Notes under the pieces: generated by a model
What the model saw: only the letters and a program-made list of their open reading frames with translations
The model's database searches: none
Told to the model about the DNA's origin: nothing
From: Stagnimonas aquatica
Lineage (GTDB): Bacteria; Pseudomonadota; Gammaproteobacteria; Nevskiales; Nevskiaceae
Assembly (NCBI RefSeq): GCF_003730135.1
Contig: NZ_RJVO01000004.1
Span: 62,001 to 126,000, forward strand
DNA length: 64,000 bases
Reading direction: 5' to 3'
Program-made: the position numbers and the translations under genes
Shown here: one piece after another, positions 59,600 through 64,000 of the stretch
Position numbering within the stretch: the stretch's first letter is position 1
Layout of the letters: each line of letters begins with the position of its first letter

Positions 59600-59675
59600 G
59601 CGGGAATAGCTCAGTTGGTAGAGCGATACCTTGCCAAGGTATAGGTCGCGAGTTCGAATCTCGTTTCCCGCTCCA
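59600..59675 (+). tRNA. tRNA-Gly (anticodon GCC)
   Basis: Acceptor GCGGGAA pairs with TTCCCGC, discriminator T, encoded CCA. The D arm is GCTCAGTTGGTAGAGC, the anticodon stem ATACC/GGTAT (one A-T outer pair) encloses loop TTGCCAA (anticodon GCC), and the T arm contains GAGTTCGAATCTC. It is driven by the consensus promoter just upstream. Confidence 0.98.
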
Positions 59676-59728: not shown

Positions 59729-59802
59729 GGCTGGGTGGCAGAGTGGTCATGCAGCGGACTGCAAATCCGCGTACGCCGGTTCAATTCCGACCCCAGCCTC
59801 CA
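59729..59802 (+). tRNA. tRNA-Cys (anticodon GCA)
   Basis: Acceptor GGCTGGG pairs with CCCAGCC, discriminator T, encoded CCA. The anticodon loop is CTGCAAA (anticodon GCA) in stem GCGGA/TCCGC, and the T arm contains CGGTTCAATTCCG. The total is 74 nt, usual for tRNA-Cys. No separate promoter is visible in the 22 nt after the preceding hairpin. Confidence 0.97.
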
Positions 59803-59809
59803 CTTGCGA

Positions 59810-60009: not shown

Positions 60010-60378
60010 ATGAGTGTTTCCCGCCACAGGATTCTGGTTCTGCTCCTCTCGATGTTGCTGGCTTCCACCGCGAACGCCGGTGAGCGCGGCTGGTTTGGCG
60101 TCGATGCGCGCTACGCCACGCAGGGATTCTGGCTGGCACGCAAGCTGGAGTCGGTGGAGATTCTCGCCGTCGCCCACGGCTCGCCAGCCCAGCATGCCGG
60201 CTTGCGGGCGGGGGATCGCATCCTGCGCATTGACGATTGCCCAATCCCCGGCTGCTCGATTCTGCAGGCGGGCAAGGGCCTGTACCGTAATGTGGGTGAT
60301 GTCGTTCGGGTGCGCGCCCGCCGGCCCGACGGAACCGAGTACGAAATCCAGCTTGTCGCTGGCCGCAGACCCAACTAG
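60010..60378 (+). CDS. Small exported PDZ-domain protein
   Basis: A 122-residue protein with a signal peptide ending near residue 23 (ANA|GERGW). A single PDZ domain covers most of the rest: GWFGVDARYATQGFWLARKLESVEILAVAHGSPAQHAGLRAGDRILRIDD, then GDVVRVRARRPDGTEYEIQLV. No protease domain is attached. A cysteine pair (DDCPIPGC) could form a disulfide. Free-standing periplasmic PDZ proteins usually bind C-termini or internal strands of partners. It is followed by the Lgt-like gene. A role in presenting or recognising C-terminal tails is only a guess from context. Confidence 0.75.
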   Translation: MSVSRHRILVLLLSMLLASTANAGERGWFGVDARYATQGFWLARKLESVEILAVAHGSPAQHAGLRAGDRILRIDDCPIPGCSILQAGKGLYRNVGDVVRVRARRPDGTEYEIQLVAGRRPN

Positions 60379-60535: not shown

Positions 60536-61327
60536 GTGATTCCCTACATTCCGCACCCGGTCGTCTCGATCTTCGGCCTGCAGGTTCAAGCCTTCCAAAT
60601 CACGCTGACGCTGGCGGTGGTCAGCTTCGTGCTGGTGGCCGAGCGCTTGGCGCGCCGCAAGGGGCTGCCCATCGTCCAGTCGGCGCGCATGGCCGCCGCC
60701 GCGCTGGCCCTGGGGGGTATCGGGTCCTACCTGACCATGCTGCTCGCCTATTTTCCCGAGATCGGTTTCTCCGGCGATTGGCGGGCTATCGCCGCCTTCG
60801 GCGGTATGTCGTCCACCGGCGCGCTGTTCGGCGGACATCTGGGGGCCTGGCTAGTGACCCGGCGCTACTGGTCGGTCGAAAGATCCTTGCAGTTCCAGGA
60901 TGCGATCATTCCGGCCTACGGCGTGGCGCTGACCATTGGCCGGGCCGGTTGTGCCCTGGCCCACGATCACCTGGGTGTGCATAGCGATGCCTGGTTCGCC
61001 GTGGACTTTCCGGGCGGCCCACAACTCGACATGGGCCTGATCGAATGCGTGCTGCTGATCCCGATCACCGTGGCCATGTTCTATGTGGACCGGCATGCGC
61101 GACGGCCAGGCACCACGCTGGCGTTCGGCTTCATCTGTCACGGCGTGATGCGTTTCGTGCTCGACTTCTGGCGGGTGGACGACAAGACCTACTTTGGCCT
61201 GATGCCCTCGCAGTATCTGTCGGTCGCATTCGTGCTCACCGCTCTGTTGGTGCTGGCCCTGGCGCCGCGCGCCGCTGGCCCGACTGCGGGGCGGAGGCTC
61301 GAAGCCGGGGACGCGGCCTCGCGCTGA
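60536..61327 (+). CDS. Divergent Lgt-family (prolipoprotein diacylglyceryl transferase-like) membrane protein
   Basis: A polytopic membrane protein of 263 residues with about seven hydrophobic segments. The GTG at 60536 gives an Lgt-like N-terminus (MIPYIPHPVVSIFGLQVQAFQITL). The central block GGMSSTGALFGG (89-100) aligns with the GGMSFHGG of Lgt but lacks its His. IGRAGCALAHDHLG (R136) replaces the usual GRxGNFxNxExxG, keeping the Arg and losing both Asn and the Glu. Lgt attaches diacylglyceryl from phosphatidylglycerol to lipobox cysteines. This is probably a paralog with altered specificity, since the housekeeping lgt is normally better conserved and beside thyA. The frame is open far upstream, so the start is not certain. 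Confidence 0.75.
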   Translation: MIPYIPHPVVSIFGLQVQAFQITLTLAVVSFVLVAERLARRKGLPIVQSARMAAAALALGGIGSYLTMLLAYFPEIGFSGDWRAIAAFGGMSSTGALFGGHLGAWLVTRRYWSVERSLQFQDAIIPAYGVALTIGRAGCALAHDHLGVHSDAWFAVDFPGGPQLDMGLIECVLLIPITVAMFYVDRHARRPGTTLAFGFICHGVMRFVLDFWRVDDKTYFGLMPSQYLSVAFVLTALLVLALAPRAAGPTAGRRLEAGDAASR

Positions 61328-61474
61328 GGCGAGATCGGCGTCGCAGCGGGCCGCCCGCCTGCGCCAGTGTTCCGGCCATTCGGCGGTGCCGTGGTCTTTT
61401 GCCGAGATGACGGCCCGCACGGCGCGCGTGCAATAATTCAGACGCCCCCGCCACGACCTCGTCCCCAGCAAGCC

Positions 61475-62254
61475 ATGCGCATGAACATGAGGACCCTGGT
61501 CCTTGCCGCCGCCCTGATCGCCGGCCCTCAGGCCGCATCCGCACTGCAACTCTCCGAACTCGGCTTGTCGCCCGAGCAGATCAAGGCGCTGTTGGCGCAG
61601 GCCAAGGCCCCGGTCGCCTCGCCTGGCATCGCCTTCGGTTCCCCAGTGGCCTTCGGTGCGGGTTGGGGTGAGGTAGGTGTCGGCGCGGGTGGATCCACCC
61701 GCCCCAAGGGCCGTTCGCCGACGTTGGACGGTGGCGCCTCGGTGGTGGTGGGAGTGGGAAACCCCAAGTCCGCCGTGGGGCTTGAGTCCGCAGTGAACAT
61801 CATCAGTATCGGTGAGGATCCCGGGCACGACGGCAACGTCAATCTCAAACTGCACACCTCCCTGTCCCGGTTCTCGGCGATGGCCGTCGGCGTCGAGAAC
61901 GTCGCGCGCTGGGGGACCGCAAAGAAAACCCGTACTTCGACCTTCGTCGCCTATTCCCAACTGGTTCCGCTGCCCTGGAATGGTCCACGCGCCCTGGCCT
62001 TCAATATCGGGCTTGGCGACAACCGCTTCAGCAAAGGCGGGGAAGGCACGCAGTTGTTTGGTGGCATGGCCGTCTTCGTGCACCCGCAGGTTTCGCTGAT
62101 CGCCGACTACAACGGTATCGAGCTGAACGGTGGTGTTTCCTGGGTTCCGTTCAGGCGCTGGCCGCTGACGATCAACCTCGGGGCCATCAACCTGACCGAG
62201 AACACCGCAGGCACTGAGTTCTCTGGCGGCGTTGGTTACTCCTTTAGATTCTGA
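61475..62254 (+). CDS. Predicted outer-membrane beta-barrel protein
   Basis: A 259-residue exported protein I cannot assign to a named family. A signal peptide ends near residue 23 (ASA|LQLSELG). A short helical part (LSELGLSPEQIKALLAQAK) precedes about ten alternating strands (GASVVVGVGN, TFVAYSQLVPL, LAFNIGLGD, VSLIADYNGIELNGGVSW, LTINLGAINLTE). The C-terminus GGVGYSFRF ends in Phe, the usual Bam recognition signal. There are no cysteines. It sits between the Lgt-like gene and the CTERM substrate, 31 nt before the latter, so it probably belongs to the same operon. Confidence 0.65.
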   Translation: MRMNMRTLVLAAALIAGPQAASALQLSELGLSPEQIKALLAQAKAPVASPGIAFGSPVAFGAGWGEVGVGAGGSTRPKGRSPTLDGGASVVVGVGNPKSAVGLESAVNIISIGEDPGHDGNVNLKLHTSLSRFSAMAVGVENVARWGTAKKTRTSTFVAYSQLVPLPWNGPRALAFNIGLGDNRFSKGGEGTQLFGGMAVFVHPQVSLIADYNGIELNGGVSWVPFRRWPLTINLGAINLTENTAGTEFSGGVGYSFRF

Positions 62255-62285
62255 TCCTCTCTTCGCACCACGGAAGACCCAAGTC

Positions 62286-62756
62286 ATGCGCACACTGCTG
62301 ATCGCGATTGCCGCCTTGTTGAGTTTCACGGCGATGGCTGGAAACAGACCCCCGGTCAGTCTGCGTAGCGGGCCTGGTGGCTCCCTGGTGGCTTCTTCCG
62401 GCCAGTCGGAGGCAGTCTTCGGCGCCAGCGGCGGGCAGACTGCGGCGGGGGAGGCCTTCTACACCTCGTTGACCGAGAACCCCAAGTTTTCCAGTGAGGG
62501 TGGCAACGTCGATCAGAACGGCAAGGCCACCATCGATGTCGAGAACGGCGATGAAAAGTACGTGCTCAGCGTCGAGCCCGACGGTTCCGCGAGCCTGGAA
62601 GAGAAGGCGGCGCCGGTGCTTGGCACGGGCATCAGTTGCGCCACCAGCAACCCAGGCCTGCCACTGATCGTCGGCATGGCGCTGTTTTACCTGCTCCGCC
62701 GCCTGCTGCGGCGGGGTGGCTGGCGGGCCCAGGCATCGGCCTCTTCCAGCCAGTAG
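62286..62756 (+). CDS. Secreted protein with C-terminal Cys sorting signal (JDVT/MYXO-CTERM-like)
   Basis: A 156-residue protein with an N-terminal signal peptide (about 1-18, AMA|GNRPP) and a hydrophilic Gly/Ser-rich body. It ends in a tripartite tail: Cys118 (TGISCATSNPG), a hydrophobic helix (LPLIVGMALFYLL) and an Arg cluster (RRLLRRGGWR). Cys118 is the only cysteine. This order of Cys motif, membrane helix and basic cluster is that of the MYXO-, JDVT-, Synerg- and CGP-CTERM sorting signals, processed by glutamic intramembrane proteases. The gene for such a protease overlaps its 3' end, which makes it the likely dedicated substrate. Confidence 0.8.
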   Translation: MRTLLIAIAALLSFTAMAGNRPPVSLRSGPGGSLVASSGQSEAVFGASGGQTAAGEAFYTSLTENPKFSSEGGNVDQNGKATIDVENGDEKYVLSVEPDGSASLEEKAAPVLGTGISCATSNPGLPLIVGMALFYLLRRLLRRGGWRAQASASSSQ

Positions 62757-63202
62757 TCGCGCGTCTGCGGTACGACGCGCCGCTGCGCGACCGGCTTTTT
62801 CTTGCCGCGCTGGCGGCTGCCCTTCCTGCCTGTGCGCTGCTGGCCTGGGTGCGAACTGGCACCCTGACCTGGCATTGGCAGTCGCCGGATCTGAAAACCG
62901 TCCTGCTGGTGTTGATCTTTCACCCACTGGTGGAGGAACTCGCGTTCCGTGGCGCCATCCAGGAGGCGCTCCTGCGACGGCTGCCGGTGGGCTTCGGACC
63001 GCTGAGCTTCGCCAACCTAGTTACCAGTCTGCTGTTCGCGGCGATGCACCTTGGTTCGCGGGCAGCCTGGCTCGCCATCGCCACTTTCATACCCTCGCTG
63101 GTTTTCGGCTACTTCCGCGAGCGGCATGGCTCTCTGCTTTCGCCCATCGTCCTGCACATGGTCTACAACGGCATGGCGCTGTTGCTTTTGCCCCTACCCT
63201 GA
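62636..63202 (+). CDS. mrtJ: CPBP/Rce1-type glutamic intramembrane protease, MrtJ-like sorting enzyme
   Basis: A membrane protease with all three Rce1-family motifs: EELAFR (EExxxR), FAAMH (FxxxH) and HMVYN (HxxxN). SFANLVTSLLFAAMH and PSLVFGYFRERHGSLLSPIVLH resemble the MrtJ group that handles JDVT-CTERM tails; this is from memory of the family and not a search. Hydrophobic segments start near RLFLAALAAALPACALLAW. The start is unclear: the only in-frame ATG/GTG/TTG before the first helix is a TTG at 62636 inside the substrate gene (121-nt overlap). A GTG at 62849 would remove that helix. The first 40 residues as drawn are probably not all real. Confidence 0.78.
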   Translation: MRHQQPRPATDRRHGAVLPAPPPAAAGWLAGPGIGLFQPVVARLRYDAPLRDRLFLAALAAALPACALLAWVRTGTLTWHWQSPDLKTVLLVLIFHPLVEELAFRGAIQEALLRRLPVGFGPLSFANLVTSLLFAAMHLGSRAAWLAIATFIPSLVFGYFRERHGSLLSPIVLHMVYNGMALLLLPLP

Positions 63203-63213
63203 GTCAGGGGCGA

Positions 63214-64000
63214 TCAGCCGGCCGCTGGCCAGGTGAAGGGCTGCCAGCCGGCGCGCCAGAGCAGATACAGCGCCAGCACCGTGATCGGATAGATGGCGAT
63301 GACGGCGAGGGCTGTCTGTGGCGGGTTCAGCAAGGCCTGGTCGCGGCGGCCGGCGACTGCCGGAGCGACGATCAGCCGGTCGGTCAGCAGTGCCACCGCC
63401 ACGCCGGCGACGACATCGGCGAAGGCGTGATGGCGAGCCGCCATCGTCGAGTAGCCGATCAGCACCGCCCAGGCGATGGCCACGGCGCCGACGCGCGGCT
63501 GCACCCTGAGCAACAGCAGCGAGGCCATGAAGGCATTCGCCAGGTGCAGCGAGGGGAACAGATTGCGCGGCTGGTCCAGTGCGTAGTTCAGCGCCAGTCC
63601 CCACTCCAGGAAGTGGCTGTCCGGACGGAGATTGGTTGGCCGCTCGATGCCGACCGGGTAGGCCAGGAACACGGCGAAGCAGGTGAACTGGATGACCACG
63701 AAGCTGAGCACCGTCCTGCGAAAGAGGTGCGCGTCGCGGATGTAGAAGACCAGGACGAAGAGGTAGAAGTAGATCGAGACGTAGACCAGCTCCCAGGTCG
63801 GATTGAACGGGATGAGCCGGTCGATCGTTCCTCTCAGGTCCTGCGCCGGCAGTGACAGCGTCAGATGGTTGATCGGGAAATAGGGCAGGAAGGCGCCGAT
63901 GGCGATCAGGGTCATCACCACGCGCTCAAAGGCCGCATCGCCCAGATGTCTGGGCCATGGGCTGCTCAGGATCGGTCGATCTGCCTGGGTCTGTGCCGGT
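63214..64000 (-). CDS. PAP2-family phosphatase, 5' end beyond the window
   Basis: A membrane phosphatase of the PAP2 / inositolphosphotransferase type. The phosphatase motifs PSLHLANAF and STMAARHHAFADVVAG (His...Asp) are present with about six hydrophobic segments. A GTG at 63921 gives 235 residues, but the frame stays open to the window edge and the extension (PWPRHLGDAAFERVVMTLIAIG) reads as real coding, so the start is outside. Such enzymes remove phosphate from undecaprenyl or other lipid phosphates, or transfer head groups. It converges with the protease gene, 11 nt apart. Confidence 0.8.
   Translation of the reverse strand, partial: PAQTQADRPILSSPWPRHLGDAAFERVVMTLIAIGAFLPYFPINHLTLSLPAQDLRGTIDRLIPFNPTWELVYVSIYFYLFVLVFYIRDAHLFRRTVLSFVVIQFTCFAVFLAYPVGIERPTNLRPDSHFLEWGLALNYALDQPRNLFPSLHLANAFMASLLLLRVQPRVGAVAIAWAVLIGYSTMAARHHAFADVVAGVAVALLTDRLIVAPAVAGRRDQALLNPPQTALAVIAIYPITVLALYLLWRAGWQPFTWPAAG

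Follow-up and report, generated by a model that had tools for sequence, protein, structure and literature searches.

The right end of the 64,000-nucleotide stretch of Stagnimonas aquatica DNA analysed here (the window, positions 1-64,000, on contig C4 of a 3.8-Mb genome in 15 contigs) encodes a glutamic intramembrane protease of the MrtJ type, a small secreted protein that is its candidate substrate and, further upstream, a divergent paralogue of Lgt. We read these genes as part of a strain-specific block of envelope genes, in which the protease and the secreted protein form an MrtJ sorting pair and the paralogue is a separate, non-canonical lipid enzyme; we assign this reading a probability of about 0.6. 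The original prediction had joined all three in one system, with the paralogue as the dedicated enzyme that lipidates the substrate. The MrtJ protease with its adjoining Cys-tail substrate stands, and the dedicated lipidating role finds no support in the comparisons described below, where G-numbers denote the genomes and L-numbers the loci compared.

The protease (62636..63202, plus strand) reaches 96.5 bits with NF033192, the equivalog model for MrtJ (curated cut-off 75; model match 62903-63184), and matches PF02517 with E 2.7e-20; the motifs EExxxR, FxxxH and HxxxN are all present, as EELAFR at 62933, FAAMH at 63035 and HMVYN at 63155. Its true start is uncertain, because the sole ATG, GTG or TTG codon in frame ahead of the conserved core, TTG 62636, falls within the substrate gene; the reading frames of substrate and protease overlap. 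The substrate gene (62286..62756, plus strand) encodes 156 amino acids with an N-terminal signal-like segment and a single cysteine, Cys118, that opens CATSNPGLPLIVGMALFYLLRRLLRR. The tail (62637..62714) has the tripartite build of a Cys motif, a hydrophobic transmembrane stretch and an Arg cluster, with a peak 17-residue hydropathy of 1.74, to be read beside the 1.78 reached by a tail-less relative at L243. Both the secreted protein with Cys118 as its only cysteine, overlapped by a protease with the three motifs, and the interpretation of the two as a glutamic intramembrane sorting protease with a Cys-tail substrate were put forward in the original prediction, and both hold. Two family models had been proposed as checks there. 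That for MrtJ is passed, and that for JDVT-CTERM (NF033191, cut-off 27) gives no match to the substrate tail at E 1; the latter model detects five of five control MrtJ partner proteins, at 33.6 to 54.2 bits. Since NF033192 is passed and NF033191 unmatched, the protease is MrtJ by the model rule and the tail is of the Cys-CTERM kind, yet not a JDVT-CTERM member. Sequence searches of the PDB with the protease and with the Lgt-like protein returned no match for either.

One Cys-CTERM protein gene beside the protease gene is what is expected for MrtJ. According to the available portion of PMC11980579 (this paper, PMC13251419 and PMC4728403 are all cited from partial text), MrtJ and one JDVT-CTERM protein form a conserved two-gene neighborhood. 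The window pair resembles this system in its above-cut-off protease, adjoining substrate and Cys/transmembrane/Arg tail; unlike it, the window tail is unmatched by the model and lacks GGC and DP, both frequent in tails at other sites, and the substrate apparently comes from a barrel-partner module described below. The MrtX/MYXO-CTERM system has a protease of the same superfamily, a tripartite tail and a proposed Lgt-type lipidation (PMC11980579), whereas it serves dozens of substrates per Myxococcota genome and the window has one substrate beside its own protease. Altogether, the protease is of a familiar type and the substrate is unusual.

The window pair is the extra pair of its genome. A second MrtJ above the cut-off, on contig C3, adjoins a 924-aa protein with a JDVT-CTERM tail, and a pair of this type recurs in the congeners G003 and G004, each with one MrtJ and a partner of 949 or 924 aa whose tail is near-identical to that of the C3 partner; hence the window pair is the additional one. 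The congeners G001 and G002 have no MrtJ match. The C3 partner (L046 4807-7581, minus strand) has a weak cytochrome c-like match close to its N-terminus and seven stretches of the choice-of-anchor D type. More widely, 19 of the 85 genomes from the order and 53 of the 369 in a class sample have MrtJ above the cut-off, which makes 72 MrtJ sites in 69 genomes, three genomes being common to both samples. A strict tail pattern identifies partners at 18 of the 72 sites and misses the window's own tail, which a looser pattern does recover. At L127, L129, L130, L131 and L136, MrtJ is above the cut-off and no adjoining gene is of CTERM type by the looser pattern; the substrates there may be encoded remotely.

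The Lgt-like gene (60536..61327, plus strand, GTG start) lies two genes 5' of the substrate gene and belongs to the Lgt family, as had been stated, with 82.7 bits against PF01790 (cut-off 24.9). Six NCBIfam Lgt models match it, each below its cut-off; with the TIGR00544 equivalog it reaches 23.4 bits (cut-off 118.9). Because a full-scoring Lgt (258.9 bits) is encoded on contig C5, the gene is a paralogue and not the housekeeping Lgt, which removes the early concern that it might be the only Lgt in the genome. Its structure, predicted from a four-row alignment (mean pLDDT 74.8), has a sole PDB match below E 0.001, the E. coli Lgt (5azb, E 3.6e-7, TM 0.61). Residue numbers were assigned via the motifs named in PMC13251419 and PMC4728403, and positions were compared by alignment. 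Y26, H103, R143, N146, G154 and R239 are listed as essential in E. coli Lgt in the available text of PMC13251419. The window protein keeps three of these six (R143, G154 and R239) and differs from the E. coli enzyme in carrying F in place of Y26, T in place of H103, C in place of N146 and D in place of E151. At the first three of these positions 30 of 30 other Lgts outside its branch, the genome's own included, have Y, H and N, and at the fourth 26 of 30 have E. The HGGL motif, which is proposed to bind the acceptor peptide (PMC4728403), is replaced. H103 is described as variable in other Lgts, and N146C as occurring in distant homologues (PMC13251419), among them the L. interrogans Lgt and MSMEG_5408; the paralogue has the same N-to-C change and, unlike them, an adjoining HDH motif, known from sequence. 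Such a residue pattern is compatible with a transferase that uses a different acceptor, as it is with some other function.

In the tree, the window protein and those of G042, G043 and G049 form one group (100/100) on a long branch (3.18); the placement of other GRxGC proteins is unsure. The branch length, together with substitutions at three essential positions, would suit a degenerate, catalytically dead copy of Lgt. However, the motif GRxGCxLxHDHxG is invariant across the four-member subfamily (two of the four being near-identical), which suggests selection for another activity, and we regard a dead copy as very unlikely.

According to the alternative favored in the original prediction, the paralogue puts diacylglyceryl on Cys118 of the inverted tail, and MrtJ cuts after the lipidated cysteine. 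The paralogue sits in one small co-directional run with the pair, and its predicted Lgt fold agrees with such a role; R143, R239 and G154 are retained, the replacement of HGGL fits a different acceptor, and N146C and E151C/D are also reported in distant Lgts (PMC13251419). On the other hand, the change Y26F inactivates E. coli Lgt (PMC4728403), and the genomic distribution is adverse. About 8 kb on each side of MrtJ were fetched where the contig allowed (at least 5 kb on both sides at 41 of the 72 sites, at least 2 kb at 51) and searched with an Lgt protein profile that included the paralogue subfamily. Lgt-family genes were found near two of the 72 sites, the window and G261, the latter having a canonical-type Lgt 3.9 kb downstream of MrtJ and no other PF01790 match in the genome. 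For searches of up to 16 kb per site in genomes of about 3.5 Mb, chance alone would give very roughly 0.3 to 0.5 nearby Lgt genes over 72 sites. No gene of the paralogue subfamily occurs in the other 71 neighborhoods, and none of the Lgt family lies within about 8 kb of the C3 pair of the same genome.

Looking from the side of the paralogue, the subfamily has few members, being present in 4 of 61 relatives when the window genome is counted. A search at E 1e-3 finds no MrtJ in the genomes of the paralogue's three nearest relatives (G042, G043 and G049, 39-40% identity). In 398 genomes of the phylum, the highest score beyond the window genome is 89.7 bits versus 433.8; of the best 29 other loci, 28 have the canonical GRxGN and one (L207) no readable motif. 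A single-sequence pattern scan of genome contigs for the Lgt-like protein gave no relative, and a scan with a four-row profile gave three matches, two of them apparently the G049 and G042 copies and the third a GRxGC homologue from Eubacteriales. At E 1e-5 the Lgt-like protein has no counterpart in plasmid records. As far as testable, then, the homologues have no neighborhood link with CTERM/protease pairs, a result that the original prediction had named as one that would speak against it: the 71 other MrtJ sites have one nearby Lgt, and three of three relatives are in genomes lacking an MrtJ match. We therefore consider a dedicated lipidating role of the paralogue unlikely. We give the same low probability to the most far-reaching form of this idea, in which the paralogue, its acceptor site rebuilt for a C-terminal cysteine of inverted topology, would be the first enzyme dedicated to lipidating the substrate of a Cys-CTERM/Mrt system and would yield a C-terminal thioether-lipid anchor.

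One genome-level result does favor a link. In the class sample, at least two PF01790 matches are present in 12 of the 53 MrtJ genomes and in 31 of the 316 genomes without MrtJ (p 0.018, or 0.031 without G000). The association fades when counted by family (8 of 32 versus 25 of about 150, p 0.31; 182 families, approximate), and in the order second-Lgt counts are inflated by contig-end fragments and partial N-terminal matches. Two such partial matches (L224 7402-8244 and L225 7308-8129, both on the minus strand) proved to be fusion proteins, in which an N-terminal half resembling Lgt is joined to a thioredoxin domain of TlpA/DsbE-like type; their weak LGT matches can inflate paralogue counts. In 8 of 13 MrtJ genomes of genus g17, 11.5 to 12.5 kb separate MrtJ from the canonical lgt; in G037 the distance is 16 kb. 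This proximity is beyond the 8-kb search and was read as inherited synteny, given that G055 and G037, from different families, share the gene order around MrtJ and lgt.

The neighbors of the paralogue's relatives are of another kind. In G042, G043 and G049 the Lgt-like gene is divergent from a DAGK_cat-type gene (by domain scan in G043 and G042, judged by sequence in G049), possibly as a lipid-recycling pair; the divergent arrangement is seen at L043 7687-9426 and L045 4371-6060, in two families of the order. Further GRxGC paralogues occur in G003 and G068, genomes of the window's own family, and there a homologue of the window PAP2 gene is 1.2 kb away with one gene between. At L222 7442-10229 and L223 2089-4842, a non-canonical Lgt, a secreted protein with a lipobox-like start and a PAP2-like gene stand in a row; the secreted protein of L223 has no Pfam match. 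In G003 the MrtJ gene is on a different contig from the GRxGC paralogue. The window PAP2-superfamily membrane protein (minus strand, 63214..64000, continuing past the window end to 64035, L047 11215-12036) scores 45.3 bits against PF01569 (cut-off 27.2), and its gene is 1.9 kb from the Lgt-like gene. As a query at E 0.01 it finds no homologue in the other 71 MrtJ neighborhoods.

Between the Lgt-like gene and the substrate gene there is a single gene, for an outer-membrane barrel-like protein (61475..62254, plus strand) that is apparently one half of a two-gene module. Its barrel nature is inferred, because the match to PF13505 (E 0.74) is weak and under the cut-off. Of the 85 genomes of the order, 24 have matches to this protein, among them its own, with three copies; plasmid records give two weak matches, in Cetobacterium. 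Seven of the 28 matches outside the window could be inspected, namely those whose loci were returned, and in all seven the gene is followed by one for a small secreted protein without a Cys/transmembrane/Arg tail. Six of these seven small proteins have no cysteine, and that of L243 has one, inside the signal-like segment. Of the seven genomes, only G003 gives an MrtJ match, and that gene lies on a different contig. The window substrate is like these proteins in size and position and may share descent with them, although a search with it in the other 84 genomes of the order gave no match. On the simplest reading, one copy of the module gained the sorting tail and the protease together.

Who, if anyone, lipidates Cys118 is a separate matter. 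The Lgt of contig C5 might do so before MrtJ cuts, with the paralogue uninvolved. A canonical Lgt is at hand in the genome, and in the accessible text of PMC11980579 Lgt is the leading candidate for this step and MrtX is active in E. coli; the same text treats the lipidation as a prediction and points out that the tail has no lipobox and an inverted topology. We consider this quite possible, somewhat short of an even chance. It is also conceivable, and in our view rather doubtful, that MrtJ cuts an unmodified tail and the partner of the barrel is simply released. The absence of the JDVT signature would agree with this, as would the seven tail-less small proteins, which presumably work unanchored; however, one cysteine is kept at the expected place of the tail, and cysteine is required for MrtX cleavage of TraA (PMC11980579). 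The likelihoods given to these alternatives overlap, for both lipidation by the housekeeping Lgt and cleavage of an unlipidated tail fit the main explanation.

The whole group of genes lies beside a tRNA. The genes uvrC and pgsA (named by sequence and gene order), tRNA-Gly (59600..59675) and tRNA-Cys (59729..59802; both by ARAGORN, all on the plus strand) come first, and pgsA and the two tRNAs are conserved in four congeners, as is uvrC, cut short in G002. After them follow, in plus-strand order, a secreted PDZ-domain protein (60010..60378; PF17820, 33.8 bits, cut-off 27), the Lgt-like, barrel-like, substrate and protease genes, and then the convergent PAP2 gene. A search at E 0.01 for these six genes, over the 10.8 to 11.4 kb that follow tRNA-Cys in each of the four congeners, finds none of them. 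DNA similarity to G004 stops at 59809, and from 64476 onward the sequence resembles a different region of a G002 contig, so the strain-specific block is about 4.7 kb long and contains the six genes, with tRNA-Cys as its left edge and likely insertion site. From tRNA-Cys to tRNA-Leu the distance is 39 bp in G003, 3.7 kb in G002 and 42.4 kb downstream in the window genome. On contig C59 of G004, the 49-base 3' end of tRNA-Cys (78538-78586, L218) is repeated 19 kb downstream (97583-97631, L227), which is what an integrating element can leave; the window genome has no exact repeat of the last 16 tRNA-Cys bases in the 131 kb read. Promoter and terminator scans gave no signal above chance.

From these data, and from knowledge of the protease family, the following scheme can be proposed. 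The small secreted protein would be exported and held in the inner membrane by its Cys/transmembrane/Arg tail, and MrtJ would cut it near Cys118, either releasing the partner of the barrel-like protein or anchoring that partner at the surface. The substrate would be the small member of a barrel-plus-small-protein module that, among the copies inspected, has the tail and the protease only here. The Lgt-fold paralogue would be a separate lipid enzyme, its relatives adjoining lipid-phosphate enzymes and not MrtJ; should Cys118 prove to be lipidated, the ordinary Lgt of contig C5 would be no worse a candidate for that step. Several points weigh against this scheme. The paralogue, substrate and MrtJ genes form one same-strand run within the block, as expected of a co-transferred unit, and many MrtJ neighborhoods are cut by contig ends. 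Retention of R143, G154 and R239 in the paralogue means that lipid binding may persist. The link to PAP2 and DAGK is post hoc, comes from about three lineages and has no canonical-Lgt-neighborhood control; the PAP2 query finds nothing at E 0.01 in the three DAGK loci, and the G003 homologue (L222) is itself below the Pfam cut-off, with 22.2 versus 27 bits. The genes of such a block may be transferred together without taking part in one pathway.

Lipidation of Cys-CTERM proteins as such is prior art. The accessible part of PMC11980579 demonstrates MrtX cleavage and its dependence on cysteine, with MrtX active on its substrate in E. coli in the absence of any dedicated partner; it depicts a predicted acyltransferase of Lgt-like type, with Lgt as the leading candidate, and states that the cognate enzyme is unidentified. 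Therefore the general part of the original inference was already in print, and only a dedicated paralogue would be new; our literature search, covering titles and the starts of abstracts, found no paper naming a dedicated lipidating partner of a Cys-CTERM/Mrt system. If the paralogue did lipidate the substrate, it would answer the open question of the acyltransferase in the Mrt/Cys-CTERM pathway and offer a compact system to reconstitute in E. coli. Within the genomes sampled, the negative census speaks against the idea that MrtJ commonly has an Lgt partner dedicated to it. For the present, the locus is of value as a testable one, with what is likely a barrel-partner protein equipped with a sorting tail and a protease of its own.

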